Shown here: piece by piece, positions 1-43,178 of the stretch
How positions within the stretch are numbered: the first letter of the stretch is position 1
How the letters are laid out: each line of letters starts with the position of its first letter
NCBI RefSeq assembly: GCF_900129725.1
Contig: NZ_FQWQ01000005.1
Span: forward strand, 62,001-126,000
DNA from: Chryseolinea serpens
Lineage (GTDB): Bacteria; Bacteroidota; Bacteroidia; Cytophagales; Cyclobacteriaceae
DNA: 64,000 nucleotides
Reading direction: 5' to 3'
The notes under the pieces: model-generated
What the model was told of the DNA's origin: nothing
The model's input: the letters and a program-made list of their open reading frames with translations, nothing else
Databases searched by the model: none
Position numbers and translations under genes: made by a program

Positions 1-68
1 GACCTGTCGTTCTGGGTTGGTGTGCATTGCATAAAGATAGCGCGCGGAGTTCAAAGGTTGAACCGTCC

Positions 69-139
69 CCTTTCGCTAAAGCTTCAGCAGGCACAGGCGC
101 AAGCATTTTCTTTGCTTGCCCGCCGAAGCTTTAGCGAAG
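69..139. repeat. long imperfect inverted repeat
   Basis: A perfect 14-bp arm, TTCGCTAAAGCTTC at 72-85, is matched by its reverse complement at 125-138. The 39 bases between them partly pair again (GCAAGC near 100 with GCTTGC near 114), so one long imperfect stem-loop is possible. It lies downstream of the minus-strand YCII gene. It could be an interspersed repeat or a transcription end; there is no clear T tract. Confidence 0.55.
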
Positions 140-168
140 GAGGGCGGTGAAAAATTTCTTCCTCTTCC

Positions 169-510
169 TTACATATCAAACTTCATCACCGGCCGCACTT
201 CCACAACACCTCCCAACACATAATCCGGACATTCCTTCGCCATCTCCACCGCTTCCTTCATGTCTTTCGCCAGCACTACAAAGTAGCCACCCACCACTTC
301 CTTGCTCTCGGCAAATGGCCCATCCGTTACGGTCTTCTTCGGCCCCGTGATGAGTTTTCCTTCTGGCAGCAACGCCTCGCCGCTGGCATACCGCTTCTGA
401 TCCTGGAGTTTCTTCACCCACTCGAACCACTTACCCATGTGTGCCTGCTGAGCCTCGGGCGACATGTGACTAACATCGCCGCCAATAAAAATGAACATGT
501 ACTTTTCCAT
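169..510 (-). CDS. YCII-related (DGPF-domain) protein
   Basis: A 113-residue protein of the YCII-related/DGPF family, small ferredoxin-like-fold proteins of largely unknown function, often found near ECF sigma factors. The family hallmark T-DGPFAE-K-E-VGGY-V is visible around residues 60-77, and the length is typical. The ATG at 508-510 opens the frame. No sigma-factor gene lies beside it within the window; the next gene to the right is divergent. Assignment to the family is safe; a biochemical role cannot be given. Confidence 0.85.
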   Translation of the reverse strand: MEKYMFIFIGGDVSHMSPEAQQAHMGKWFEWVKKLQDQKRYASGEALLPEGKLITGPKKTVTDGPFAESKEVVGGYFVVLAKDMKEAVEMAKECPDYVLGGVVEVRPVMKFDM

Positions 511-970
511 TGTCTTAAAAGGTTTGGTTGAACATAATTTACCCTATGACGGACCAAAATCCAGGACATGGACAGAAACTTTAAAAAAAATTGAAATAAA
601 AAATCCTCTCCGGAAAGGGCAGGGATTTTTCGTGAAGCTCACACGGAGCACAGCGCAGACAGCGAGGGTTTGGATTGGGATGGAAGCCCAGATCCCCGAA
701 CATGGCGATCAAACCCAGATCGAGATGAGGAAACAGGAAAAGGTTGGTTTAAGGTACTTTAGGTCTTTTTACTTTTTTATTCTTAAGCGCCGGCTACTTT
801 ACAGCGTCACTATTCGGTTAAAACTATATTTTTGCGGCGTATAAAAGGCATGCACAGTACGCTCTACACGCTATCTTCACCACTTTTTCGGGCCGTTCAG
901 GTCGCGACAAAAGCCAGCGATGTTTGCGCAAACACTTTAACTTATAATTCTGAATCAAAACAAAAACACA
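511..970. other. intergenic region between divergent genes
   Basis: A 460-base stretch without a convincing gene. It holds a terminator-like hairpin with arms AAAAATCC (599-606) and GGATTTTT (623-630), a GTCGCGAC palindrome at 901-908, and a 14-bp palindrome at 921-934 listed separately. An open frame at 491-844 crosses the hairpin, resembles nothing I know, and is not called. Confidence 0.5.
921..934. promoter_or_regulatory. 14-bp perfect palindrome, possible operator
   Basis: TGTTTGCGCAAACA is a perfect inverted repeat that ends 36 bases before the ATG of the nucleotidyltransferase gene. Its size and symmetry suit a dimeric repressor or activator of the LacI/GntR kind. This is inference only, since no such regulator is encoded nearby. 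Confidence 0.4.
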
Positions 971-1888
971 ATGGGCACACCAAATAATCCACAAAAAAAA
1001 CTCGCTTTATTGGTCCTGGCGGCCGGCATCGGAAGCCGCTATGGAGGCATCAAACAAATCGACGGCTTTGGGCCTCACGGCGAAACCATTATGGATTATT
1101 CCCTTTTTGATGCCGTCAGGGCTGGTTTCACCAAGGTTGTATTTATTGTCCGCGAGGAAATACTGGACGTCGTAAAGGAAAAATTCCTGCCCAAGCTCCA
1201 GGGAAAAGTGGAGGTCGAATTTGTGATCCAATCCCTCGACAAGATGGTGCCACCCCAATTTCAGAACCCTGAACGGGTGAAACCCTGGGGAACCGGCCAT
1301 GCCATGCTGTGCGCGCGCGATGTGATCCGCGAACCCTTCGTGGCCATCAACGCCGACGATTTTTATGGCAAGGAATCCTTTGAGTCGATCGCCAATTTTT
1401 TTGCCGGCGAAACTTCCGGCGAACATGCCATGGTGGGCTACACCCTGAGCAAAGTGCTCTCCGAACACGGCAGCGTATCGCGCGGCTGTGGCGAACGCGA
1501 TGCTAGCGGCTTCTTGAAAACCGTGGTGGAGCGCGTCACCATCGTAAAAGAAAACGGCAAGATCATCTCCAAAGAAAAAGAAGGCGACCGCGAACTCAGC
1601 CCCGACATCCCCACCTCCATGAACTTCTGGGGCTTTCAACCCAACATCTTCGACTTCACTCAAAAACTCTTCAACGAGTTCCTGAAAAACAACGAAGGCA
1701 ACCTCAAATCAGAATTCTACATCCCCCTGGTCGTAAACGAAATGATCAAAGAAGGCATCGGAAAAGTCCGCGTCCTTCCCGGCAGCGACAACTGGTTCGG
1801 TGTTACTTATAAAGAAGACAAAGAAGAAGTATCCCAAAAACTCAAAGTCCAGGTAGCCTATGGCACCTACCCTGAAAAGCTCTGGTAA
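971..1888 (+). CDS. sugar-phosphate nucleotidyltransferase family protein
   Basis: A 305-aa cytoplasmic protein of the NTP-transferase superfamily. The nucleotide-binding signature LVLAAGIGSRYGG-KQ is at residues 14-30, and the metal-binding Asp pair lies in the AINADDFYG segment near residue 120. These enzymes join a sugar-1-phosphate to an NTP to give an NDP-sugar plus pyrophosphate. The substrate cannot be read from the sequence: it is not an obvious RmlA, GalU or GlmU. The gene is monocistronic, has a palindrome just upstream, and is followed by a two-hairpin repeat. Confidence 0.8.
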   Translation: MGTPNNPQKKLALLVLAAGIGSRYGGIKQIDGFGPHGETIMDYSLFDAVRAGFTKVVFIVREEILDVVKEKFLPKLQGKVEVEFVIQSLDKMVPPQFQNPERVKPWGTGHAMLCARDVIREPFVAINADDFYGKESFESIANFFAGETSGEHAMVGYTLSKVLSEHGSVSRGCGERDASGFLKTVVERVTIVKENGKIISKEKEGDRELSPDIPTSMNFWGFQPNIFDFTQKLFNEFLKNNEGNLKSEFYIPLVVNEMIKEGIGKVRVLPGSDNWFGVTYKEDKEEVSQKLKVQVAYGTYPEKLW

Positions 1889-1913
1889 GACAAAGAGCCC
1901 CTGCTACTGAATA

Positions 1914-1968
1914 ACCCCGGGCTTTAGCCCGGGGTATAAGCTCCCCATTAAGAAAGGGCTTTAGCCCT
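1914..1968. repeat. two-hairpin interspersed repeat, copy 1
   Basis: The first hairpin has arms ACCCCGGGC (1914-1922) and GCCCGGGGT (1927-1935) with loop TTTA. After 19 bases comes a second, AGGGC (1955-1959) and GCCCT (1964-1968), again with loop TTTA. A second copy with the same order lies at 43240-43298. The first hairpin may also end transcription of the upstream gene. Confidence 0.7.
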
Positions 1969-2082
1969 GACTGTCACTCGAGGCCACGTTGCTTCCTGTC
2001 ATTTACATCTTGGAACATTACAGCCCGCTGAAAATTCACGCTAGATAATTCCCCAGGCGCCTCGTAATTTTGAAATGTGAAG

Positions 2083-3036
2083 ATGACCGCGCACCACACC
2101 GCATTTGTAAAGACAACCGCAGCAGCGTTGGGCTTCTCGTTTTGTGGCATTTCGAAAGCAGAATTTCTGAAAGACGAAGCCCCACGCCTCGAAGAGTGGC
2201 TGAAGCGCGGCTACCAAGGCAAGATGGGCTATCTCGAAAATCATTTCGACAAACGACTCGACCCCACCTTGTTGGTGCCCGGAGCAAAGTCGGTCGTGAG
2301 CCTGATCTACAACTACGCACCTCAAAAACCACTGGAAGGCAAAAGCGACCTAAAGATCGCGCGCTATGCGTATGGCGAAGACTATCACACCGTGGTCAAG
2401 GACAAACTAAAGATCTTCCTCGATAAAATTCGGGAGGGGGTAGGAGAGGTTCACGGTCGCGCTTTTGTGGACTCGGCGCCGGTGATGGAACGCGCCTGGG
2501 CCAAGCGGAGTGGACTGGGATGGATCGGCAAGAACAGTCTTCTTCTGAACCGCAGCCACGGCAGCTTCTTTTTCCTGGCCGAGTTGATCATCGACCTGGA
2601 ACTCGACCACGACGAAGGCATGAAAGACTACTGCGGCACCTGCACCGCCTGCATGGACGCCTGCCCCACCGACGCCATCAGCGAACCCTATGTTGTGGAC
2701 GGAAGCAAATGCATTTCCTATTTCACCATCGAACTGAAGGAAGAGATCCCGGCCTCCGTGAAAGGAAAGTTCGACAACTGGATTTTCGGCTGCGACATTT
2801 GCCAGGAAGTTTGTCCCTGGAACAGCTTTGCCAAACCCCACCAGGAGCAACGCTTCAATCCCCCACCGGAATTGGAAAACATGACGCGTCAGGATTGGCG
2901 CGAGATCACAGAAGATGTTTTCAAAAAACTGTTCCCCAAGTCGGCCGTGCAACGCACAAAGCTGAAAGGCCTGCAGCGCAATATTCTATTTGTGGAAGAT
3001 CAGGATGCACGTCCTGGCGATCGCGAAAGGGAATAA
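2083..3036 (+). CDS. queG: epoxyqueuosine reductase
   Basis: QueG reduces epoxyqueuosine to queuosine at the wobble base of tRNAs carrying GUN anticodons, using a cobalamin cofactor and two [4Fe-4S] clusters. The protein (317 aa) carries the catalytic-Asp segment [10 protein letters not shown] (D130) followed by [12 protein letters not shown]. The ferredoxin-like cluster motifs include C184-x2-C187-x2-C190-x3-C194 and C210, C237-x2-C240-x3-C244. I place the start at the ATG at 2083; an in-frame GTG lies at 2077. The length lacks the C-terminal HEAT-like extension found in longer homologues. A hairpin at 3039-3063 ends the unit. Confidence 0.93.
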
Positions 3037-3038
3037 AA

Positions 3039-3063
3039 AAAGCCCTTCGATGTGAAGGGCTTT
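3039..3063. terminator. bidirectional intrinsic terminator
   Basis: AAAGCCCTTC (3039-3048), loop GATGT, GAAGGGCTTT (3054-3063). On the minus strand the stem is followed by a run of T, so it should stop the 61-aa gene efficiently. On the plus strand it closes queG with a weaker tail. Confidence 0.75.
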
Positions 3064-3085
3064 GAAAGTCAATTTTAGTTTGTGT

Positions 3086-3271
3086 CTAAGCAACCACGAA
3101 GCACCGATTGAGTATTTCTTCGTGTTCTGTCCCAAACCTGGTATAGCACCAGTTTTTGAGTTCGTTTACTTCTTCGCCGATCAAGAGGTTGATGGCTTTG
3201 CGAAGCTCTTTTTCAAAGAGAAGCGCGCTAAAACTCACTTTGGTGAGCACAGTTTTAACATAGTTCAGCAT
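3086..3271 (-). CDS. conserved small protein (61 aa)
   Basis: A 61-aa, mostly helical, soluble protein with no signal peptide or membrane segment. The segment FEKELRKAINLLIGEEVNELKN looks amphipathic and regular, and codon use is normal. I recall near-identical small proteins in other Cytophagales, but this could not be searched here. The gene is convergent with queG and shares its terminator; AT-rich DNA upstream (3280-3340) would carry the promoter. No function can be assigned. Confidence 0.65.
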   Translation of the reverse strand: MLNYVKTVLTKVSFSALLFEKELRKAINLLIGEEVNELKNWCYTRFGTEHEEILNRCFVVA

Positions 3272-3472
3272 GGCAAAAATCTGAATAGTTTAAAAAATTT
3301 AGAATCCTAACGAGTGTTAATTTAAAAAATTGTTCAAAAATTCCAAAGTCGCCCACATTAAGTTTCCCGTTTCCATGGAAAAGGTGGGTTAATATTCGCT
3401 CGAAAGGGCCTTTTTTTAGCCGGAAATCGACGATTGCGGCTTAATTTTCGCATCGGTTTTTGCGTTTAACCT

Positions 3473-3480
3473 TAACTTTG
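3473..3480 (+). promoter_or_regulatory. -7 promoter element of batD-aroC
   Basis: TAACTTTG matches the Bacteroidota -7 consensus TAnnTTTG and lies 27 bases before the ATG at 3508. It falls inside the longer open frame that begins at 3460, which argues for the downstream start. No clear -33 element is at standard spacing. Confidence 0.55.
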
Positions 3481-3507
3481 ACCCATATTGACTTTCTTGT
3501 AGAAACT

Positions 3508-4971
3508 ATGCGGTGGATGCTTTTCATACGTCTTTCTCTCACCCTCCTTCTGGCCGGGTTCCTGTCGGGAACGGCCTTCGGTCAGGGCGTCCAGATCACC
3601 TTGGGCCCGGACGAGATCGGCGAGAACCAGACCTGGACCATCACCATCACCGCCCAGAACGATCGTCTGAAAAGCTACGACAACTTTCCCGAGATCGAAG
3701 GCTTCCGTAAGCGCGGCCAATCCACCCAGTCCACCACCAACATTGTGAACGGGCAGGTGTCGTCTTCGCAAAGTGTGATCATGACCTATGCGCCCACCAA
3801 ACAGGGCACGTTCACCATTCCTTCGTTTACCATGAAAGTGAACGACAAACCCGTAAACGTTCCGGGCAAGAAGGTGCGCGTAGGACCGCCGTTGCAACAA
3901 CAGCAACAAAATGATCCCTTCCGCAGCTTCTTCGACCGCCCCGGCGACGACTTCTTTGGCAGCGGCGACACGGAGTTTGTCGACATCAAAGAAGATGCCT
4001 TCCTGGCACTCACCACCAGCAAGGACGAGGTCTATGTGGGTGAGGGCTTCACCACGACGCTTTCATTTTTTGTGTCACAAGAAAACCGGGCACCCCTGCA
4101 ATTCTACGATCCGGGTCGCCAACTGGTAGACATCCTGAAAAAGATCAAGCCCACCAATTGTTGGGAAGAAAACTTCAACATCGAAAACATCGAAGGCGAA
4201 AACGTGAAGATCAACGGGCGCGACTACATGCAATACAAAGTATACGAAGCCGTCTATTTTCCCCTCAATGCCGAGCCCATCAATTTCCCCAGCGTAGGAT
4301 TGGAAATGATCAAATATAAGGTCGCCAAGAATCCTTCCTTTTTTGGTCAGAATCGAAAAGAAGATTTCAAAAAGTTTTTCACCAAACCCAAGCGCGTCAG
4401 CGTGAAGGAGCTGCCACCTCACCCGCTCAAAGACGAGGTGGCCGTGGGCGACTATCGTCTCGATGAACGCATCCGCCACACCGACCTGGAGACCGGACAG
4501 AGCGCTGGCTACAACTTCAATATCTATGGCGAGGGCAACATCTCGGCCATTCATAAACCCAAAACAAAGAGCGACGACAAGTTCGAATTCTACGAACCCA
4601 ATGTGCGCCAGGACATCACGCGGCAAAACAACCGCATCACCGGCACCAAGTCGTTCAGTTATTTTATGATCCCGAAAGAACCCGGACAATTTAAACTGAA
4701 GGACTATTTTCAGTGGGTGTACTTCAACCCCAAGCTGAAAAAATACGACACCCTGAAATCGAAACTGATGGTGACCGTGGCCGGTGAAAGCAAGAAGAAC
4801 GAAGCCATCCAGTCCAGCGACATGGGAAATTTTTATAACAAGATCGAGACCGCCGACAACACCCTGAACACCATGGCCGACACGCGATGGCAGAAGTGGG
4901 CCTTCAACTTTTTTATTTTGGCGATGTTAGGCGCATCCGCCTATCTTGTGTTCAAAAAGCCAGCCGTCTAA
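3508..4971 (+). CDS. BatD family membrane protein
   Basis: A 487-aa BatD (oxygen-tolerance) homologue. An N-terminal signal peptide (about residues 1-26, ending AFGQ) is followed by beta-sandwich repeats, the first starting with the [19 protein letters not shown]-like segment. A single C-terminal membrane helix is near residues 465-483. Known BatD proteins are encoded with BatA/B/C/E von Willebrand-domain proteins, but none of these is adjacent here. The next gene, 23 bases on, is aroC, so the two are probably co-transcribed. An upstream in-frame ATG at 3460 is rejected because the promoter element at 3473-3480 falls within that extension. Confidence 0.85.
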
Positions 4972-4994
4972 AATTCAGTCCCGAGAAAATCAGC

Positions 4995-31868: not shown

Positions 31869-34800
31869 ATGAAGAAGTATCTACTAACGTGGTGCGCGTT
31901 AGCTTTTGCGCTGTTTTCTTTTGCGCAGGAGCGGACGATCACCGGTAGGGTCTCGTCCTCCGAAGACGGCTCGTCCCTTCCCGGTGTAAACGTGGTGGTC
32001 AAAGGAACCACAAATGGAACGGTTACCGATACCGACGGTAACTATAAATTGACAGTCCCCTCCGGAGATGCCAGCCTGGTGTTTTCTTTTATCGGTCTCC
32101 TCACCCAAGAAGTGCCAGTTGGCGACAGAACAACTTTAGATGTTCAACTTACCTTAGATGTCAAGCAACTTTCCGAAGTCGTGGTTACCGCTCAGGGTAT
32201 CGAGCGCGAGCGCAAAGCCCTTGGGTATGCGTCGACGACCATCTCCTCGGCAGACCTTGCTAACAAGCCTGAGACCGACGTAGGACGGGCGTTGCAAGGA
32301 AGAACCCCCGGTCTCCAGATCCTGAACTCTTCGGGTATGGCCGGTGCTGGTTCCAAGATCAACATCCGCGGTATCAGCTCGGTGAACGGAAATACACAAC
32401 CCCTGTGGGTTGTCGATGGTATTCCGATCAACACATCGACCAACGATTCCAACACCGACTTCCGCGATGGTAACATTGCGCCTTCGCGTTTTATCGACAT
32501 TGATCCCAACAACATTGCCAGCATCAACATCCTGAGAGGTTTGAGCGCCACAACCTTGTATGGTTCGCTGGGAAGAAATGGTGTGATCCTGGTGACGACC
32601 AAGTCGGGCGCCAGCAGCAAGCAGCAGCAAAAATTTGAAGCCAGTGTGAGCCAGTCTTATTTTGTGATCCAGGCCATTTTGCCGGAGTATCAAAATAAAT
32701 GGGCCAACGGTTTCGATGGTGACTATGGTGAATTCTTCAGTAACTGGGGAAGCTTGTTTTCCAACAACGTAGCCGTAGGAAAACACCCTTACTACGAACA
32801 CCGCGCACTTTTCCCGGATCATCCGGAATTTAACGATGCCACCGGATACGTTCCCAAGCCGGCGCCAAACAACGTGAAAGATTTCTTCAAGAAAGGATCA
32901 TCGTCGAACACGTCGTTGAACCTGGGTTTCAAAGGTGAAAACTCCAGCCTGAACCTGAACTATAGCCACTTGGATGAAAGCGGTTATATTCAGAACAACA
33001 ACATGAAGCGCGACAACCTCGCACTGGGCGGAACGGCAAACCTGACCAAAAAACTCTCCATCACCAGCACATTCAATTTTGTGCGGACTGAGATCAAGAG
33101 CCCTCCGACCGGAGCCGGCACAGGTAGTAACTCCACCGGTGGACCTTCCGTGTTTGCAAACTTGTTCTACGTGCCCCGTAACATCGACCTGATGAACTGG
33201 CCCTATGAGAACCCCATTACACACGCCAGTGTTTACTATCGCAACGGTAACGACGTTACCAACCCCCGCTGGCTGCTGAGCAACGCGCAACAGACTTCGA
33301 AGACAAACCGCTTCTTTGCCAACGTGAGCCTGAACTATGAGCTCACCAACTGGTTGAAGGCAAGCTACCGTCTGGGCTTGGATACCTATTCTGAAAAACA
33401 AACCTATTGGCTGAACAAAGGCTCGGTGGGCTATCCTACGGAAGCTCAACTTTTGTCAAACGGTCTTTATCGCTCTGTCAACTTCCTCAATACGATCGTG
33501 GATCACACCTTCATGTTGAGCCTCAACAAGGAGATCGCCACCGATCTTGATCTGACCGGCGTAGTAGGTTTCAACGCCCGCACCGATACCAACGAGCAAT
33601 CCGGTTTGGAAAGCTCCGGACAAGTGGTGTATGGCTTGATCGAGCACCGTAACTTCTCCAACACAACGTCACGCGACTTCAGAGGTAACAACCTGAACAA
33701 GACCATGCGCAGAACCTGGGCAGGTGCCTATTTCGACATGGGTCTCGGTTACAAAGACTTCTTGTATGTGAACCTGACCGGCCGGAACGACTGGTCGACC
33801 ACACTTGAAAAAGCTAACCGCTCTTTGTTCTATCCTGGTGCCAGCTTGTCGTTCATCCCCACAACGGCCTTCCCTGACTTCGCTTCCGGAGTATTGGAAT
33901 TCCTGAAGTTAAGAGCCGCCTACGGTACTTCGGCAAACTTCCCCGAGCCTTATAACACGCGTCCTTACCTGGCCATCAACGCCCAGGCTTCCCAGGACGT
34001 GCAAGGCATCGTTTCCACCCAAGGAACGCCTACTGTTTTGGCCAACAAGAACCTGAAGCCTGAGTTGCTGACGGAAATTGAATTCGGATTGGAAGCGCAA
34101 TTGCTGGACAACCTGGCCAAGGTCGATCTCTCGTATTATAACAGACAAGCAAAAGATCAAATCCTGAATCGCTCGCTCGACCCTTCAACCGGTTATCAAA
34201 CCACGCTGATCAACGCCGGCTCTATCCGCAACAAGGGTGTTGAACTTGGTTTGACGATCAGCCCCTTCCGCAAAGGAGATTTCCATTGGGATGTTCGCGT
34301 GAACTACACCAAGAACATTTCGAAAGTGGAAAGCTTGCCCGAAGGATCGAAAGAGATCCTCATCGGTGGATTTACCAACCTGGGTAACTTTGCCATCGAA
34401 GGACAACCTTTCAACGTTATCCAAGGAAACTATACACAGCGAAATGACAAAGGCGAATACCTCGTTGACGAAAACGGCAACTGGGTGATCTCCAATGACA
34501 TTAAGGTCATTGCCAACCCGAACCCGAAATGGTTGGGATCGTTGATCAGTGACATGAACTACAAAGGCATCAACTTTGGATTCCAGTGGGACTATGTGAA
34601 TGGCGGACAGGTTTATTCCTATACAGCGGCTACCATGGTGGGTCGCGGTGTGGCGAAAGATCTGGAGGCCTTCAATCCCGGTCTTCCCCTCATTCTTCCC
34701 GGTGTGAAGCAGTCGGACGGAACGCCTAACGATCTTCCGGTAACTACTTCCGGTATGTTCTTTGGAAACTCCATCATCGGTGGATCGGCCAACGACAGAG

Positions 34801-35066
34801 GCGTTTTCGATGCGACACGCATCCGCTTGAGAGAAGTTAAATTGGGCTACTCCCTGCCTTCTTCGATCACCACCAAATTGGGTGTACGGGGAATCAACAT
34901 TTCCTTCCTGGGTAGCAACCTCTGGTTCCGTGCGATCAATGCGCCGAAATACTCCAGAGCCGATTTCGACAGAACGGCTTTCGGTGTGGGCAATGGCGCA
35001 GGCTTCGACTTCCTGGGCGGTCCTTCGGCCAGACGTTATGGTGTTAACCTTCGGATAACTTTATAA
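31869..35066 (+). CDS. SusC/RagA family TonB-linked outer-membrane protein (pair 3)
   Basis: A 1065-aa TonB-dependent transporter. Signal peptide 1-20 (ending SFAQ). The regulatory-like domain has EDGSSLPGVNVVVKGTTNG. It has the signature SEVVVTAQGIERERKALGYA, the plug (INIRGISSVNGNTQPLWVVDGIPIN, INILRGLSATTLYGSLGRNGVILVTTKSG) and a barrel ending NLRITL. It is followed by a SusD-like gene 10 bases on and then a third lipoprotein gene, a three-gene unit. The ligand is unknown. Confidence 0.95.
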   Translation: MKKYLLTWCALAFALFSFAQERTITGRVSSSEDGSSLPGVNVVVKGTTNGTVTDTDGNYKLTVPSGDASLVFSFIGLLTQEVPVGDRTTLDVQLTLDVKQLSEVVVTAQGIERERKALGYASTTISSADLANKPETDVGRALQGRTPGLQILNSSGMAGAGSKINIRGISSVNGNTQPLWVVDGIPINTSTNDSNTDFRDGNIAPSRFIDIDPNNIASINILRGLSATTLYGSLGRNGVILVTTKSGASSKQQQKFEASVSQSYFVIQAILPEYQNKWANGFDGDYGEFFSNWGSLFSNNVAVGKHPYYEHRALFPDHPEFNDATGYVPKPAPNNVKDFFKKGSSSNTSLNLGFKGENSSLNLNYSHLDESGYIQNNNMKRDNLALGGTANLTKKLSITSTFNFVRTEIKSPPTGAGTGSNSTGGPSVFANLFYVPRNIDLMNWPYENPITHASVYYRNGNDVTNPRWLLSNAQQTSKTNRFFANVSLNYELTNWLKASYRLGLDTYSEKQTYWLNKGSVGYPTEAQLLSNGLYRSVNFLNTIVDHTFMLSLNKEIATDLDLTGVVGFNARTDTNEQSGLESSGQVVYGLIEHRNFSNTTSRDFRGNNLNKTMRRTWAGAYFDMGLGYKDFLYVNLTGRNDWSTTLEKANRSLFYPGASLSFIPTTAFPDFASGVLEFLKLRAAYGTSANFPEPYNTRPYLAINAQASQDVQGIVSTQGTPTVLANKNLKPELLTEIEFGLEAQLLDNLAKVDLSYYNRQAKDQILNRSLDPSTGYQTTLINAGSIRNKGVELGLTISPFRKGDFHWDVRVNYTKNISKVESLPEGSKEILIGGFTNLGNFAIEGQPFNVIQGNYTQRNDKGEYLVDENGNWVISNDIKVIANPNPKWLGSLISDMNYKGINFGFQWDYVNGGQVYSYTAATMVGRGVAKDLEAFNPGLPLILPGVKQSDGTPNDLPVTTSGMFFGNSIIGGSANDRGVFDATRIRLREVKLGYSLPSSITTKLGVRGINISFLGSNLWFRAINAPKYSRADFDRTAFGVGNGAGFDFLGGPSARRYGVNLRITL

Positions 35067-35076
35067 GCGACGAACA

Positions 35077-36804
35077 ATGAAAAAGATATATAAATATTTC
35101 ACTCTGACCCTGATCCTGTTCGCCATGTCTTGTAACATGGACAGAGATCTGGATAACCCGAATGAAGCATCAACCAGCCAGGCAAACGTGGACCTGTTGA
35201 TGAATAAGATCCAATTGGATTTTGCTGCGTTCTATTCCCTGGTATCCGGTAATGATATTTCGGGTGTTACAGGAACCAACGTGGGCGTCAACCAAGTCGT
35301 GCGGATGATGGCGATGATCAGCGGTTCCACCTATGAAAGAGCCTTGATCTCTCAGAATTTCGATCAGATGTGGACACGTGCTTACCAGGACGTGCTGATC
35401 AACATCGAAACCCTGCTTCCGATGGCGAAAGACGGAAACTTTATGGTGCATTCAGGTTCCGCCAAGGTCCTGAAGGCTTACATCTATATTACGCTGGTGG
35501 ACGTGTTTGGCGACGTTCCGAAGACGGAAGCGTTGCAGGGAACGACCGGTGTATTTAACCCGAAAGCTGACCCTGGAGCCCAGATCTATGCCGAAGCCAT
35601 CGCGCTTCTGGATGAAGCCAAAACAGATCTGGCAGCCAGTGGACATGGCCTTGACAGAGACATCTATTACGGCGGCGACACTGACAAATGGATCACGCTG
35701 GCCAATTCGTTAAAGTTGAAAGCCTGGATGAACATCTCTACCGATCCTGCCCGCAAAGCAGAAGCGGTAACAGCGATCACAGCCTTGTTGGCCGACGGCG
35801 ATCTCATCGATACCGATGCTGAAGAATTCACTTACAAATACGGAACAGCAGACATTCCTGCCCGCTCCCGCCATCCTCAGTATCGCCAGTTCTATACACC
35901 GGCAGAAGGTAACGGCACAGGTTATGTTGGAAACTATTACCTGAAGGAAGCCTACAATGGAAAAGGGATCGAAGATCCTCGCTGGAGATATTATTTCTTC
36001 CGCCAGGTCGGTTCCATTGACCAAGCCCTTTCTATCGATGGAGAATCTGTTCCTTGTGTGTTAAACCCGAAGCCTCTTCACTATGGCACCGGAACTCCTT
36101 TCTGCACATTTGAGCCCGGTTTCTTCGGTCGCGATCACGGCGATGCCAGTGGAACGCCTCCCGACGGAACAGTGAAGACCGTGGTGGGTGTATATCCTGC
36201 CGGTGGATTGGCTGACACCAACATCACCTATACAAATCCAGATGACGAGAGACCCGGCGACGGTAAAGGTGCTGACTTTTATTTGCCCGTCGTTCAAGGC
36301 CTTGGCGGAAATGGTAAAGGAATCGAACCCATTTTCATGTCCTTCTTCATTGACTTTATAAAGGCTGAAGCGGCCCTCCGCTTGGGTATTGGAACCCCTG
36401 CCGACGCAAAAGCATCGATGACAACAGGTATCGATAAGTCGATCAATCGGGTAAAAGCCATGGGAGAATCCCTTGGACAGACCGTTCCCGAATCGATGGT
36501 TGCCTCTGCACCGGACTACAAGATCTTCGTGGGCAATCTCTTCGATGCATCCGACGATAAGCTTGACGTGGTGATGAAAGAATACTATCTCGCGCTGTTT
36601 GGAAACGGTATTGAGGCCTATAACCTCTATCGCAGAACAAGCTCGCCGAAGAACATTCAGCCCATGCTTGCGCTTAACGGTGGAAAGTTTGCGATGTCGC
36701 TCATCTACCCCGCAGTCTATGCCAACCTGAACGGATCGGTGACTCAAAAGACAGATGGATCAGTGAAAGTTTTCTGGGACAAAAATCCCGATGACCTTAA
36801 ATAA
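35077..36804 (+). CDS. SusD/RagB-like nutrient-binding outer-membrane lipoprotein (pair 3)
   Basis: A 575-aa lipoprotein (lipobox AMSC, C19) of the second SusD-like group rather than the classical RagB group. The N-terminal NPNEAST segment and QMWTRAYQDVLINIETLLP, VLKAYIYITLVDVFGDVPKTEAL and WITLANSLKLKAWMNIS are hallmarks. The C-terminal part contains YYLALFGNGIEAYNLYRRT and a terminal YPAVYANLNGSVTQK-like segment. It should form the extracellular lid of susC3. The next gene starts 8 bases after its stop. Confidence 0.92.
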   Translation: MKKIYKYFTLTLILFAMSCNMDRDLDNPNEASTSQANVDLLMNKIQLDFAAFYSLVSGNDISGVTGTNVGVNQVVRMMAMISGSTYERALISQNFDQMWTRAYQDVLINIETLLPMAKDGNFMVHSGSAKVLKAYIYITLVDVFGDVPKTEALQGTTGVFNPKADPGAQIYAEAIALLDEAKTDLAASGHGLDRDIYYGGDTDKWITLANSLKLKAWMNISTDPARKAEAVTAITALLADGDLIDTDAEEFTYKYGTADIPARSRHPQYRQFYTPAEGNGTGYVGNYYLKEAYNGKGIEDPRWRYYFFRQVGSIDQALSIDGESVPCVLNPKPLHYGTGTPFCTFEPGFFGRDHGDASGTPPDGTVKTVVGVYPAGGLADTNITYTNPDDERPGDGKGADFYLPVVQGLGGNGKGIEPIFMSFFIDFIKAEAALRLGIGTPADAKASMTTGIDKSINRVKAMGESLGQTVPESMVASAPDYKIFVGNLFDASDDKLDVVMKEYYLALFGNGIEAYNLYRRTSSPKNIQPMLALNGGKFAMSLIYPAVYANLNGSVTQKTDGSVKVFWDKNPDDLK

Positions 36805-36812
36805 ACGAAACT

Positions 36813-38459
36813 ATGAAATCAACTATAAATAAATTATCGCTGTTCATCGGCATCGCCTGTTTGGCGGCATGCGCGGATGACTCCCTGGATCCGTTTCGCC
36901 TGAAGGAACAAACCAAGGGGTCGATCCTGGCGCTCCGCGGAGATTCGTTCGACGCCTTGAACGACAATGGCTGTTCGAATTCGTTCTTCAAAAATAAGAT
37001 CGTCGGCGACGAAACCTTCGTCATGGATGTTGAATACCTTTCAGAAGACCCCAAGTCGCTGCAGGAGATCCAGGTGTATGCACACTATCAAAGACCCGAC
37101 CCTGATAATGCAGGTCAGTACACGATCGATACACGCGCCAAAGTGGCAACATTCCCGGGATCGACGTTAACGGCAACCGGCACCGGAAACCCGACAGGCG
37201 TTTTGTCCATTCAACTTTCCGCCATTCTTACTGCCGTGGGAAATCCTACGGTGGAGGACGATGATCTTTTGAATATCGAATCAGATCTGCTCCTGACCAA
37301 TGGATCGGTGGTGTTCTCGACATCTGTGGTGAACAGTGGTTTGTATCAAAGCGGTATTTTTTATCCCGCTCAAACCCTTCTCTATTGCCACGATGACATT
37401 AACAACTTCCTTCCGGTACCGAAGTTCGCATTGCGTGTAGGTACGCCGTTGAAGAATGGGGCGAAGGATACGTTGAACATCACATACAAGACTGAAATTG
37501 CCACACCCCCCACGGTAACACTGGTGGGCAACGAAGGTACGCTGGGCACATTGGTAGCAGATCCGGACGACGACTCTGGAACTAAGTTCTATGCCATCTA
37601 CACAGCCGGTCCGGGCTATACGGGACCCGTTTCTGTGAAAGTGGCAGGCGCTGTGACCGGTGGCTCGGGAGCCACCGCTGGACTGGTGCAGCCGGAAGCC
37701 AAGCTGGCTACCATACAAGTCGATAACCTCGGTCCCCAAGTAGTGGGCGCTCCGATTATCGAAAACCAGGCAAACCCCGCCGCAGGCCCTCGCATCGGAC
37801 GTGATCAGTACATCGCCATTACCCTTAATTTCCAGGAAGAACTCGATCCGGGCACCGACCTGTTGATCTCGGTGACGGGTCATAACCTGGATCCGGTAGA
37901 TGAAGATGTGATGACCATCGCTGAAAATGGCAGATCGGCAACCTATACCTATGTCTACAAGGATACGGATGAAGGAACAACCGTGACTCCGGGCGATCTG
38001 GACTTTGACGTTACTGGTGGCGCCGATTTGGCTGGCAACGACTTCGCAGGCATATCGTTTACGACATTGAATGACATCGGTGAGCCTCCGGTGCCGGTAG
38101 TTACGCTGGACGCCAACTACGATCTTGGTAATAACATTAAATGGTCGGCTACAACAACCACCGGCCCTTCTAATGTTGGTGGCGCAACCTCGGGAACAGT
38201 CTTCTATGCGGCAGTGCCCGCCGGAAGTGCTGCACCCACACAGGCAACCCGTACCATTAAGGGCGTAGTGGTGAACGATGGATTTGATTTTGGTGGCGAT
38301 ACACCAGTCGAAACCGGAAGCTTCGACGTGTCCAATGGCTTCGGAGTGGCATCGAGTAAATTTGTCTCAAACGGCGATTTTGACGTGTACTTCTATTTTG
38401 TGAATGCAACGGGTAACGTGAGTAAGAACACGGGCCCGACGCAGGTTACCATGCAATAA
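36813..38459 (+). CDS. accessory surface lipoprotein of pair 3 (548 aa)
   Basis: A lipoprotein (lipobox LAAC, C20) made mostly of beta-sandwich-like sequence. Several stretches resemble Ig-like or bacterial surface repeats, for example PVPVVTLDANYDLGNN and GPVSVKVAGAVTGGSGAT. It has no enzyme motif I recognise. It lies 8 bases after the SusD gene and before a strong terminator, so it is most likely a third surface component of uptake system 3, comparable in position to SusE/SusF-type or other ligand-binding lipoproteins. The homology to SusE/F is not visible and is not claimed. Confidence 0.8.
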   Translation: MKSTINKLSLFIGIACLAACADDSLDPFRLKEQTKGSILALRGDSFDALNDNGCSNSFFKNKIVGDETFVMDVEYLSEDPKSLQEIQVYAHYQRPDPDNAGQYTIDTRAKVATFPGSTLTATGTGNPTGVLSIQLSAILTAVGNPTVEDDDLLNIESDLLLTNGSVVFSTSVVNSGLYQSGIFYPAQTLLYCHDDINNFLPVPKFALRVGTPLKNGAKDTLNITYKTEIATPPTVTLVGNEGTLGTLVADPDDDSGTKFYAIYTAGPGYTGPVSVKVAGAVTGGSGATAGLVQPEAKLATIQVDNLGPQVVGAPIIENQANPAAGPRIGRDQYIAITLNFQEELDPGTDLLISVTGHNLDPVDEDVMTIAENGRSATYTYVYKDTDEGTTVTPGDLDFDVTGGADLAGNDFAGISFTTLNDIGEPPVPVVTLDANYDLGNNIKWSATTTTGPSNVGGATSGTVFYAAVPAGSAAPTQATRTIKGVVVNDGFDFGGDTPVETGSFDVSNGFGVASSKFVSNGDFDVYFYFVNATGNVSKNTGPTQVTMQ

Positions 38460-38477: not shown

Positions 38478-38508
38478 AAAAAGGCTGCCTTCACGGGCAG
38501 CCTTTTTT
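38478..38508 (+). terminator. intrinsic terminator closing the pair-3 operon
   Basis: GGCTGCC (38483-38489), loop TTCACG, GGCAGCC (38496-38502), flanked by A and T runs. Confidence 0.9.
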
Positions 38509-38541: not shown

Positions 38542-40959
38542 ATGAGAGTTCCGTTTTTTGTAACCGATAGCTCCCCCTGGAAGTATTGCCTGGCTTTCAT
38601 TATGCTTGCCGTTCAACTCCCCGGCTTCGCTCAAGGACCTGTACTGAAAGGAACCATTTCAGAGCATGACAACCCCATGCCCGGCGTAACGGTGTACCTG
38701 GAGCAATTGAATATTGGTACCGTGTCCGATTCCCTTGGAACGTATTCCATTTCAGTGCCCTCGGGAACCTACTGGACAAAGTTTTCATTCACCGGCTACA
38801 AAACCGTTCGCGTCAAGCTCACCCTGCATCAATCCCAACGTTTCGATGTTGTTATGGAGGAAGACATCACCCAACTGGATGAAATGGTGGTGAACGCACA
38901 AGCGGAAGATCACAACGTGGCCAGTGTGGACATGGGTGTGAGCACGCTGACGATGAAGACGCTGTCGAAGATGCCGGCGTTTATTGGGGAAGTCGATATC
39001 ATTAAAAGTATGTTGCTGTTGCCCGGCGTCACCACGGTGGGAGAGGGCACCTCGGGGATAAACGTCCGCGGGGGTAATTCGGACCAGAACCTGATCTTGC
39101 TGGATGGCATGCCCATCTTTAATCCCTCACACTTAATGGGCATGTTCTCGGTGTTCAACCCCGACATGGCCAAAGACATTTCGTTGTACCGCGGCGGCGT
39201 TCCGGCCCAGTTTGGCGGACGTGCTTCTTCCGTTTTGGACATCAGCGTCAGAAGTCCTTCCACAAAGAAAAGTTTCCAGGGAGGGATCGGGTTGGTGGCC
39301 AACCGTTTTTTGTTTGAGACACCACTCATCAAAGACCGGCTATCGCTCATCATCGGTACGCGGTTTTCATTTTCCGACTATCTTTTCAAAGTGCTGAAGA
39401 GCTCAAGCCTGCGGAACACAAAAGCCAATTTCTATGACATCACCGGGCGGCTGGAATACCTGAAGGGGAACGACCGGATTTACCTGACCGCCTATAATTC
39501 CACCGATGTATTTAAACTTCCTTCCGATTCGATCTCGAATGGAAACATACCACCGGCCACCGACTATCGCTGGAAAAGCAACACAGCCACATTGGGATGG
39601 ATCCATAAGTTTGCCTCCAACCTGTCCTTGAAGTCAGCGCTGGTCTACAGCAAGTACAATTCCGTGATCTCCAGTCATGAAGTTCCGAACGACTATGATT
39701 TCAAATCGGACATCTCCTATAAATCCATGAAGTCCGACTTGTCGTGGCAAAAGAACGCGCATCAGGCCATCGGAGGAGTTGAGTTGGCGCAATACAAGGT
39801 CAATCCCGGTACCCTGATCCCCTTGTCCGATGAAACGGATCTATCCCTGCCCCCCCTGCAATCCGAACAGGGCACAGAGATGGCTGTGTTTGGATCGGAT
39901 GAAGTGCACTTGCAACGATGGCTCACCATGCAAGCGGGGCTTCGCTATTCTTATTATTTCAACACGGGACCTTCCACGGTCTACGCCTACGCGCCGGGAA
40001 AGGAGCGCGACATAAAGTATATAACGGACACGATTCACTATAGCAAACACGAACGCATCGCCAGCTATGGTGGTCTTGAACCCCGCCTGGCCTTCAACAT
40101 GCGTTTAGGACCAAAGTCCTCCATAAAGATTGGCTACAGCCGCTTGCGCCAATACCTGCAACGGATTACGAACACAACGGCATCGCTACCTACAGACCGC
40201 TGGCAACTCAGCAACACGTATGTGAAGCCCATCATCTCCGATCAATTTTCGGTGGGCTATTTCCGGAATTTTTATCAGAACAAATACGAGGCATCCCTGG
40301 AAGTATACACCAAGAATATTCAGAACATCAGCGACTACAAAGGGGGTGCCGACCTGTTGCTGACGCCGCTGCCCGAGACAGTTATCCTGCAGGGGAAGGG
40401 CAAAGCCTATGGACTGGAATTTCAATTGAAGAAAAATGTAGGCCGTCTCACCGGGTGGCTGAACTACACGTATTCTCAAACGATGATCCTGATCGAATCC
40501 ACTAATCCCAACGAACAGGTGAATAACGGGAAGTGGTACCCGGCGAACTACAACCGACCCCACAGTTTGAACCTGGTGTTGAACTATAGTCCGAATAAAA
40601 AGGGCATTACCTATGCTGCGAATTTTACATTCAGTTCCGGCCGGCCGACAACGTATGCCTACAATCGCTATTACATGGGCTTCCTGCAAGTGTCTAATTT
40701 CATAGACCGCAACCAGGATGTTATTCCGAACTATCATCGCCTTGACCTCTCCATGACCATCGACCCGATGCGCGCAGCGAACAAGCGCTTTCATGGAAGT
40801 TGGGTGTTCAGCCTGTATAACGTGTATGCGCGCAAGAATGCTTATTCCATTTTCACGAAAACAAACGGCATACATTCAGCCATCATCTCTTCGGATGCCT
40901 ACAAGCTTTCGATTTTTGCGACGATCATACCCTCGATCACCTATAATTTTAAGTTCTGA
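38542..40959 (+). CDS. TonB-dependent receptor with CarboxypepD-regulatory-like domain
   Basis: An 805-aa outer-membrane receptor of the shorter type, distinct from SusC. A signal peptide ends about residue 31 (PGFAQ). A carboxypeptidase-regulatory-like domain (33-115) contains DNPMPGVTVYLEQLNIGTVSD. The plug has INVRGGNSDQNLILLDGMPIFNPSHLMG and a barrel ending ITYNFKF follows. The lipoprotein gene next door starts 2 bases after its stop, so the two are translationally linked. By analogy with SusCD it should import a ligand captured by that lipoprotein. Confidence 0.93.
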   Translation: MRVPFFVTDSSPWKYCLAFIMLAVQLPGFAQGPVLKGTISEHDNPMPGVTVYLEQLNIGTVSDSLGTYSISVPSGTYWTKFSFTGYKTVRVKLTLHQSQRFDVVMEEDITQLDEMVVNAQAEDHNVASVDMGVSTLTMKTLSKMPAFIGEVDIIKSMLLLPGVTTVGEGTSGINVRGGNSDQNLILLDGMPIFNPSHLMGMFSVFNPDMAKDISLYRGGVPAQFGGRASSVLDISVRSPSTKKSFQGGIGLVANRFLFETPLIKDRLSLIIGTRFSFSDYLFKVLKSSSLRNTKANFYDITGRLEYLKGNDRIYLTAYNSTDVFKLPSDSISNGNIPPATDYRWKSNTATLGWIHKFASNLSLKSALVYSKYNSVISSHEVPNDYDFKSDISYKSMKSDLSWQKNAHQAIGGVELAQYKVNPGTLIPLSDETDLSLPPLQSEQGTEMAVFGSDEVHLQRWLTMQAGLRYSYYFNTGPSTVYAYAPGKERDIKYITDTIHYSKHERIASYGGLEPRLAFNMRLGPKSSIKIGYSRLRQYLQRITNTTASLPTDRWQLSNTYVKPIISDQFSVGYFRNFYQNKYEASLEVYTKNIQNISDYKGGADLLLTPLPETVILQGKGKAYGLEFQLKKNVGRLTGWLNYTYSQTMILIESTNPNEQVNNGKWYPANYNRPHSLNLVLNYSPNKKGITYAANFTFSSGRPTTYAYNRYYMGFLQVSNFIDRNQDVIPNYHRLDLSMTIDPMRAANKRFHGSWVFSLYNVYARKNAYSIFTKTNGIHSAIISSDAYKLSIFATIIPSITYNFKF

Positions 40960-40961
40960 CT

Positions 40962-42029
40962 ATGAGGCTGACGATTTCCAACATAAAAACCAGGCTCATC
41001 ACCATTTCTTCCGGCATCGTCCTGCTGGTGTTGAACAATTGTGTTACTCCTTTTGAACCCGAGCGTCGTGATATAGATAAGCAGCTGGTCGTGAGCGGTT
41101 CGATCACCGATGGCCCAGGCCCACACTTCATCAGCGTGAACTACACACCACCCTATTCCGACATCAAACAAAAATCCTATCTCTATCCCAACAATGCCCG
41201 CGTGTTTCTCTACGACGACACGGGATATGAAGAAGAACTGAGCCCCACCACTTACGGCACGTATAAAACAGCAGACGACACAAAAGGTGTCCCGGGCAGG
41301 ACCTATCATGTCACCATCGTATTGGAAAATGGTACGCGGTATGAATCCCGTCCTGAATTGATGGCACCTGTTCCGGCGATCGACACCTTGTTTGCAGAGT
41401 TCAAACCCCTTCCGTCGACGGACGTGCCCGGTAAATTTTCGGTCTACCTCGAGACCACGGATGCGCCGGAAACCAACAACTATTATTGGTGGAACTGGGA
41501 GCATTATGAAACACTACCCTACTGCAAGATCGTGGCCCTGCCTGGTGGAGGAAGACTGGCTTATCCTTGCTGCAACCCGTGTTGGAGGATCACGTTTTGC
41601 GATGGCTGTTTTTCGCTTACGTCCGACTACCTGAGCAACGGCAAACGCCTGAGACGACAACACATCACCGATGTGCCCTACGATTCGAAGGATCCGTATT
41701 ACATCATGGTGAAACAACAATCAATTTCCGAGGACGCTTTTAAATTCTGGTCGGCCGTGTATGATCAACTGAACAACACCGGCGGTGTGTTTGATAAATC
41801 ACCCGCTACGATCCAGGGCAATATTTTCAACGTTAGCGATCCGACCGAGCAGGTGTTGGGCTATTTTATGGCGAACAGTGTTGTGCAGCGCTATTTTTAT
41901 GTCGATCGCAATGTCGATGTGCTGCTCGTTCGCAGGCCTTTCAATCCCTATGAGATTGCGGAAACCTGTGTCAATTGCGAGAACCAGGTTGGCCGCACAA
42001 ACGTCATGCCTCCGGGTTGGATAAATTGA
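40962..42029 (+). CDS. DUF4249 cysteine-rich outer-membrane lipoprotein
   Basis: A 355-aa lipoprotein (lipobox LNNC, C27) of the DUF4249 family, which regularly accompanies TonB receptors. The N-terminal half is beta-rich (QLVVSGSITDGPGPHFISVNYTPPYSD). The unusual part is a cysteine cluster: C188, C203, C204, C207, C213, C216 and a late pair C336-x2-C339. These could form disulfides or bind a metal. The partner receptor ends 2 bases upstream. The family has no established function that I know of. Confidence 0.88.
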   Translation: MRLTISNIKTRLITISSGIVLLVLNNCVTPFEPERRDIDKQLVVSGSITDGPGPHFISVNYTPPYSDIKQKSYLYPNNARVFLYDDTGYEEELSPTTYGTYKTADDTKGVPGRTYHVTIVLENGTRYESRPELMAPVPAIDTLFAEFKPLPSTDVPGKFSVYLETTDAPETNNYYWWNWEHYETLPYCKIVALPGGGRLAYPCCNPCWRITFCDGCFSLTSDYLSNGKRLRRQHITDVPYDSKDPYYIMVKQQSISEDAFKFWSAVYDQLNNTGGVFDKSPATIQGNIFNVSDPTEQVLGYFMANSVVQRYFYVDRNVDVLLVRRPFNPYEIAETCVNCENQVGRTNVMPPGWIN

Positions 42030-42149: not shown

Positions 42150-43178
42150 ATGAATGATAGACTGATCTCTGCCGCCAAAGGACTTGCCACCGATCGCACC
42201 CCCATCTGGCTCATGCGCCAGGCCGGCCGCATTCTCCCGGAATACAGAAAGGTGAGGGAAACCGCCAAAGACTTTAAAACCCTCGTAAAAACCCCCGAGC
42301 TGGCCACCGAAGTAACCATACAGCCCGTCGACATCCTGGGCGTGGACGCGGCCATCATCTTTTCCGATATCCTGGTCATCCCCGAGGCTATGGGTCTCAA
42401 CTATGAAATGGAAGAAAACAAAGGCCCCGTCTTCCCCAAACGGATCACGTCGGAAGCCGATCTCTCATCGTTGCACATCGCACAAGCCGAAGAACTTCAA
42501 TATGTATTAGACGCCATCCGCCTCACCAAAAAAGAGCTTCAAGGCAAAGTGCCACTCATTGGTTTTGCGGGCGCACCGTGGACCATCTTCTCCTACATGA
42601 TCGAAGGCAAAGGCAGCAAAACCTTTAGCCAGGCAAAAAAAATGCTCTATACCCAGCCCGCGTTCTCACACCGCTTGCTGGACATGATCGCCCAAAGCAC
42701 CATCCATTATCTGAAAGCGCAGATCAAAGCCGGCGCCGACATCGTGCAGATCTTCGACTCCTGGGCTGGCATATTATCGCCGGATCAATACGCAGAATTT
42801 TCCCTGAAATACATCTCAAAAATTTGTGATGCCCTCGGAAACGACGTCCCCAAAATTGTCTTCGCCAAAGGAGCTTTCTTCGCGCGTGCTGAAATGAATA
42901 CCATCAACTGCGACGTCGTAGGATTGGATTGGAACATGGGCATCGCCGAATCGCGCGCCCTGCTCCCCAACAAAGTGCTCCAAGGCAATCTCGACCCTTG
43001 CGCCCTCTACGGCTCCCTCGACGACGTGCGACGCGAAACCAAAAAAATGCTCGACGCCTTCGGCCCCCACAAACACATCGCCAACCTCGGCCACGGTTTA
43101 TATCCCGACACCGAAGTAGACAAAGTGAAATGCTACATCGACACCGTGAAGGAATACAGCGCAACGCTGCGTCGCTAG
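42150..43178 (+). CDS. hemE: uroporphyrinogen decarboxylase
   Basis: Removes four carboxyl groups from uroporphyrinogen III to give coproporphyrinogen III in heme synthesis; cytoplasmic and cofactor-free. The 342-aa protein has the first signature [19 protein letters not shown] and the second [16 protein letters not shown], with active-site Asp in [12 protein letters not shown]. The length is normal. It is a single-gene unit. The heme-binding protein at 11426-11908 and other cytochromes would be consumers of its product. Confidence 0.97.

Follow-up and report, generated by a model that had tools for sequence, protein, structure and literature searches.

A TonB-dependent transporter and an eight-cysteine DUF4249 lipoprotein of Chryseolinea serpens probably form a barrel-and-lid importer

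We analysed a stretch of 64,000 nucleotides from Chryseolinea serpens (hereafter the window; contig NZ_FQWQ01000005.1, positions 62,001 to 126,000, of a genome of 8.36 Mb in 10 contigs) and focused on two adjacent genes that encode a TonB-dependent transporter and a lipoprotein of family DUF4249 (PF14054). By computation we found that such genes are paired and co-inherited, and that cysteines of the lipoprotein are conserved and co-occur. The two proteins probably constitute a barrel-and-lid importer with four disulfides in its lid. The transporter would be the barrel and the dedicated surface lipoprotein its lid, anchored via a lipidated Cys27 and covering the barrel where it opens to the outside. 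There, the lipoprotein would help to capture a small nutrient, which TonB energy would draw past the plug. Eight further cysteines would form four disulfides that stiffen an insertion in the second domain of the lipoprotein and tie this insertion to the C-terminal tail, with C207-C339 as the ancestral bond and C188-C203, C213-C216 and C204-C336 as the likely others.

The transporter and lipoprotein genes

A preliminary description of this locus had named a TonB receptor and a DUF4249 lipoprotein encoded 2 bases apart. Both open reading frames (ORFs) were confirmed, with 2 bases separating the transporter stop from the lipoprotein start, and Pfam matches to Plug and PF14054 agree with the two identities. 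The features of the pair are as follows.

38542..40959, plus strand: TonB-dependent transporter gene (ORF, 805 amino acids (aa); Pfam; AlphaFold2; Foldseek)
40962..42029, plus strand: DUF4249 (PF14054) lipoprotein gene, putative lid (ORF, 355 aa; Pfam; AlphaFold2)
41040..41042, plus strand: codon of Cys27, where the mature lipoprotein is predicted to begin and to be lipidated (clade conservation)
41523..41609, plus strand: cysteine-rich insertion in the second domain, with C188, C203, C204, C207, C213 and C216 (positions, conservation, predicted strands)
41967..41978, plus strand: C-terminal C336-x2-C339 motif (positions, conservation, C207/C339 co-occurrence)

The transporter matched CarbopepD_reg_2 (E 9.7e-18) and Plug (E 8.6e-11; 42.7 bits against a cut-off of 23.9), and consists of a signal peptide, a carboxypeptidase-regulatory-like domain (residues 36-117), a plug (about 150-229) and a beta-barrel, in that order. 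Its AlphaFold2 model (mean predicted local distance difference test score, pLDDT, 75.9) has many long strands, which begin near residue 230 and continue to the C-terminus, and a Plug match with a predicted many-stranded barrel is what marks a TonB-dependent transporter. A Foldseek search with this model returned PfeA, Fiu, FepA and other siderophore-type TonB transporters at the top (probability 1.00) and XusA at rank 49. XusA was the best match of the transporter sequence in the PDB (E 2.3e-9, residues 32-234). The sole cysteine of the transporter, residue 16, is in the signal region.

The pair had been called SusCD-like, which holds for the arrangement of the genes and not for their products. 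The SusC/RagA model TIGR04056 gave the transporter 69.5 bits, over residues 36-215 only, against a cut-off of 368.25; the neighbouring SusC (31869-35066), which exceeds the transporter by 260 aa, scored 566.4 bits. The SusD models of Pfam match the neighbour at 35077-36804, and found no match in the lipoprotein at E 0.01, where DUF4249 was the sole Pfam family (E 4.1e-42, 145.1 bits over residues 29-309, gathering cut-off 28.5).

The AlphaFold2 model of the lipoprotein (mean pLDDT 89.4, predicted template modelling score 0.82) shows two beta-sandwich domains, at about residues 40-135 and 136-320, followed by a C-terminal tail; it is mostly strand and loop, with a single 15-residue helix in the mature part. 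The chains that VIA-align aligned with this model were mostly two-domain fibronectin-III-like ones (best Z 8.0, root-mean-square deviation 10.8, 177 residues), a likeness that may just reflect a common arrangement. As the Foldseek and VIA-align matches were generic, with Z at most 8.0, we rejected them as a guide to function. When the lipoprotein sequence by itself was compared with the PDB, a single match came up, at E 0.98, which we took as chance; a search with profile A3 found nothing at E 0.1.

Pairing and co-inheritance

We examined the pairing of DUF4249 genes and TonB transporters in two samples. We drew the first from the window and from 80 regions chosen out of two hit lists, largely, though not strictly, by score; among its 103 DUF4249 ORFs, 93 had a transporter on the same strand in their locus, 75 within 300 base pairs (bp) and 69 within 50 bp. 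In the second, of 182 DUF4249 ORFs in 140 loci with some places included twice, a transporter was found upstream in the same run for 148 ORFs. Of 122 adjacent pairs, 118 were distinct and had a transporter no shorter than 600 aa, and the tree distances of their partners correlated (Mantel r 0.884, with no value above 0.17 in 999 permutations), to which shared species history contributes. All 28 pairs with the eight-cysteine lipoprotein described below were monophyletic in both the lipoprotein and the transporter tree, with support 1.0 and no intruder. The window pair is one such DUF4249 gene beside a co-inherited TonB transporter. It is very likely that the transporter and the DUF4249 lipoprotein work together.

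Some loci have a richer layout. Four or five DUF4249 genes were found at L061, L115 and L127, with four in a row behind one transporter at L061 and five in a row at L127; loci of the L061 type look as if one barrel took alternative lids. Such rows are odd for an importer with one lid per barrel, and would fit a lipoprotein that acts beside the barrel as a co-receptor or substrate-processing partner, rather than as a lid that opens and closes. However, the genes of adjacent pairs lie close together (median gap of 2 bases in 118 pairs), and a preprint by Price and colleagues on the partner of DUF4249, cited in PMC11003636, speaks of lids in its title. We regard the co-receptor as unlikely, and a lipoprotein that serves as a lid on the barrel as likely.

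DUF4249 had at least one match in 99 of 148 genomes sampled from the phylum of the window genome (E 0.001), 96 of them above the family cut-off. Bacteroides ihuae was the sole genome with a match among 14 named controls. A scan of the genome contigs with a single protein as query found no relative, after which the contigs were rescanned with an alignment of seven close proteins (A1). The window genome encodes seven DUF4249 genes. A short class of DUF4249 proteins (under 320 aa; e.g., L098, L099 and L100 in the same genome) also adjoins TonB transporters, and mostly lacks mature cysteines (24 of 33).

The eight-cysteine clade

The lipoprotein has cysteines at positions 27, 188, 203, 204, 207, 213, 216, 336 and 339, exactly those listed in the preliminary description with Cys27 in addition. 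Five of the seven A1 sequences share 39-42% identity with the window protein, and all eight mature cysteines are present in each of the seven. A profile built from A1 gave 52 ORFs above 300 bits, 48 of them distinct, which we used as the clade set. C188, C203, C204, C207, C213, C336 and C339 occur in all 48 and C216 in 47, in a set whose membership leans toward these residues because the profile was built from proteins that carry them. The next score, 237, belonged to a shortened ORF (L124) in which the cluster is also present; those after it were 205 and lower and came from proteins without the full set. In a tree built without the cysteine columns, the 48 proteins grouped with that of L124 in a single clade (support 0.991 for 49 of 49 leaves), whose named members include Runella, Imperialibacter and Rhodocytophaga.

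As the cysteine cluster is conserved across the clade members and A1, the alignments indicate that it is not a product of chance. The survey of conservation that had been proposed as a check thus ended with the cysteines kept in 47 to 48 of 48 members, and the possibility that they are not conserved in close homologues falls away. The column of Cys27 holds a cysteine in 46 members and a gap in the other two, and this residue would carry the lipid anchor. A ninth cysteine, seen at L159-L161, L166 and other loci in the position of residue 290 of the window protein (41829-41831), occurs in part of the clade; it recurs elsewhere in the family, with 17 changes on the tree, and looks unpaired.

Disulfides or a metal site

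A metal site or multiple disulfides had been suggested for the cysteine cluster. The pattern of co-occurrence favours the disulfides and disfavours the metal site. In 190 distinct DUF4249 proteins, C207 and C339 were both present in 152, one of them alone in 1 and neither in 37, and C203 and C204 were both present in 69, with one alone in 7. Outside the eight-cysteine clade (n = 141), alignment column 807 and C336 both held cysteine in 65 proteins and neither did in 66; C336 was found alone in 10 and column 807 alone in none. Counted as sets without further cysteines, the commonest combinations were 207/336/339 with column 807 (30 proteins), none at all (26) and the eight with position 290 (25, an odd number of cysteines), followed by the eight (20) and 203/204/207/339 (12). 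In addition, the spacing of C213-x2-C216 becomes CxxxxC in L162, L168, two L185 proteins and L124. Because C207 and C339 co-occur almost perfectly, several common sets are even (one large set is odd) and the CxxC motif is loosened in some members, the sequences favour structural disulfides over a metal site as the likely role of the eight cysteines.

The parity of the cysteine count was rejected as proof of disulfides by itself, since 48 of the 153 proteins with C207 have an odd number of mature cysteines and 105 an even one; when position 290 is left aside, 136 counts are even and 17 odd.

The model of the lipoprotein offers a possible connectivity, which follows from predicted strand positions rather than distances. 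The model predicts two pairs of strands, 187-192/198-203 and 208-212/218-221, and we infer that both pairs are hairpins. The first hairpin could bring C188 near C203, and the turn of the second could hold C213 and C216. With C188-C203, C213-C216 and C207-C339 paired, C204-C336 would be left as the fourth bond. In the arrangement that we favour, the disulfides pin the hairpin insertion to the C-terminal tail. A literature search on disulfides in the surface lipoproteins of such transporters returned nothing relevant.

A metal site has arguments of its own. The cysteines could bind zinc or copper, for instance in CxxC knuckles formed by C213/C216 and C336/C339, and the pair would then import a metal or metal complex, heme included. 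Both CxxC motifs are present in nearly all of the 48 clade members, the solved structures closest to the transporter model are siderophore-type receptors, XusAB of Bacteroides is a barrel and lipoprotein that import iron-siderophores (as described in the available part of PMC13142918), and heme-related genes adjoin the pair in two lineages. However, the coupling of C207 and C339 across the family places C339 with C207, outside a four-cysteine knuckle, and the loosened C213-C216 spacing also speaks against a metal site. The likeness of TonB barrels is little guide to substrate, and no family for metal uptake was found among the 25 commonest of the 75 families of neighbouring genes described below. 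Allowing up to 3 mismatches to the Fur-box consensus, we found no such site in the window. We consider the metal alternative improbable, and the metal or metal-complex substrate guessed for this pair has little positive support.

Several observations nevertheless weigh against a barrel-and-lid importer with four disulfides. The position 290 cysteine is present in 25 of the 48 clade members and makes the count odd; C216 was lost singly in one clade member, and 17 of 153 counts are odd even without position 290. C207 and C339 share only 2 changes on the tree, and among the ten columns they are the sole pair to share more than one; as the sequences are related, the cysteine counts are not independent events. 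At some loci there are several DUF4249 genes per transporter. Finally, the heme-related neighbours make metal binding slightly more likely and the disulfide-stabilised lid slightly less so.

A third gene in relatives

The pair is often followed by a third gene in other DUF4249 loci. Of 72 followers on the same strand within 150 bp, 44 belonged to one homology group (single-linkage blastp, E 1e-8). Pfam scans at E 0.01 or better found MG2 in 11 and Plug in 3 of 18 members. In a profile of the group, positions 45-139 match complement C3 and, weakly, alpha-2-macroglobulin, and positions 639-704 match SusC plugs. The protein has MG2 and SusC-like plug domains and no barrel. Counted by ORF, 56 of 108 long DUF4249 proteins outside the eight-cysteine clade, 6 of 40 within it and 0 of 34 short ones (under 330 aa) have such a gene downstream within their run; counted by locus, the numbers are 38 of 77, 5 of 30 and 0 of 32, and two of the five eight-cysteine loci (L122 and L186) are the same place. 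In the reverse search, DUF4249 was found in the short flanks of 11 of 30 MG2/plug loci (one per genome), so that most of the broader MG2/plug family is located elsewhere. No MG2/plug gene lies beside the window pair; the same genome encodes a clear relative on contig C9 near 679.6 kb (L057:9527-11932), where it is accompanied by other DUF4249 paralogues.

These counts raise the question of whether the pair belongs to a larger machine for polymers or peptides, with the downstream MG2/plug protein as a component and the window copy as a reduced or orphan form. The frequency of the gene behind long DUF4249 proteins outside the clade favours this, but 34 of the 40 eight-cysteine ORFs, including that of the window, are without it, so that the pair must work alone or with an MG2/plug protein encoded elsewhere, and the relative in the window genome keeps company with other paralogues. 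We find such a machine doubtful for the window pair. Somewhat less remote, though still tentative, is that the long-form DUF4249 system was at root three-part, with a TonB transporter, a beta-sandwich lid and a barrel-less MG2/plug protein, and that the eight-cysteine clade mostly dropped the third part and has a heavily cross-linked lid instead. The MG2/plug protein could feed substrate to the transporter or compete with it for TonB. A literature search, judged by titles and abstract openings and with a term, MG2, that also matches magnesium, found no account of this triad, and nothing relevant on a link between MG2 and TonB operons, among the papers listed.

Gene neighbours

Upstream of the window pair lies a SusC/SusD-like locus (31869-36804), followed by one gene (36813-38459) whose product of 548 aa had no Pfam or NCBIfam match at E 0.01, and then by a palindrome:

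38478..38507, no strand assigned: terminator-like palindrome with a 12-pair stem, between the preceding gene and the transporter gene (terminator scan)

The palindrome was scored as a minus-strand site, and T's also follow it on the plus strand; the scan found 6 terminator-like sites against 4.0 expected by shuffling. Its position suggests that the pair begins its own transcription unit.

We scanned 102 neighbours (at least 100 aa, up to two per side) from 27 of the 30 eight-cysteine loci with Pfam; the scan left out the window and L186 and L187, which apparently are the same places as L122 and L120. Two of the 25 commonest of 75 neighbour families were recurrent: family 9 glycosyltransferases made up 15 of the 102 proteins, and PHP/helix-hairpin-helix proteins like those of DNA polymerase X made up 11. 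MG2 was matched in 3 of 102. A glycosyltransferase homologue follows the last DUF4249 gene directly on the same strand in 12 of 30 loci, with gaps of -95 to 199 bp. As all 12 are from one family of genomes (f11), this adjacency is perhaps plain synteny. In these loci (L188-L194, L196, L197, L199, L201 and L203), the glycosyltransferase, of the heptosyltransferase type, is directly 3' of the eight-cysteine DUF4249 gene, and a polymerase X/PHP gene is 5' of the transporter in most of them. The recurrent neighbours name no substrate.

Heme-related genes were found at a few loci. In the window (42150-43178) and in a near-identical genome (G001), hemE is downstream of the pair, and in loci L120 and L121, from two Runella species, genes for CcmE, CcmF and Cytochrom_C_asm proteins are directly upstream of the transporter (about 34-4973). 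These genes vary by lineage, and none lies immediately beside the pair at the other loci listed, which counts against a metal complex such as heme as the substrate. We considered a heme link via hemE and did not adopt it, since hemE does not come next at the eight other loci compared.

Comparison with known systems

Our analysis adds a well-delimited eight-cysteine clade to the little-studied lidded importers of Bacteroidota, and recasts the guess of a metal as a question that experiments can decide, disulfides or metal. The frequent MG2/plug gene after DUF4249 pairs provides a handle on the function of these importers.

The import pair that had been proposed for this locus is supported, and is not new as a kind. 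The available part of PMC11003636 describes BT2172/BT2173 of Bacteroides thetaiotaomicron as a conserved operon, proposed by Price and colleagues to be a functional pair, in which disruption of either gene has similar consequences. By gene arrangement and this description, BT2172/BT2173 likewise combines a transporter with a DUF4249 protein, so the pairing and, going by the title of the preprint, the idea of a lid were already known. With SusCD/RagAB, the window pair shares a TonB-dependent barrel, an adjacent lipoprotein gene and the N-terminal CarbopepD_reg_2 domain; unlike them, it has a shorter barrel that fails the SusC model, and its lipoprotein is a DUF4249 protein with a mostly beta model instead of a SusD. 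XusAB (9GBC) and BtuBG are alike in that a TonB-dependent barrel is capped by an unrelated surface lipoprotein, a cap that we propose for the window pair. BtuG is a beta-propeller. XusB is a DUF4374 beta-propeller according to the available part of PMC13142918. In contrast to the propellers of XusB and BtuG, the DUF4249 lipoprotein is predicted to fold into two beta-sandwich domains.

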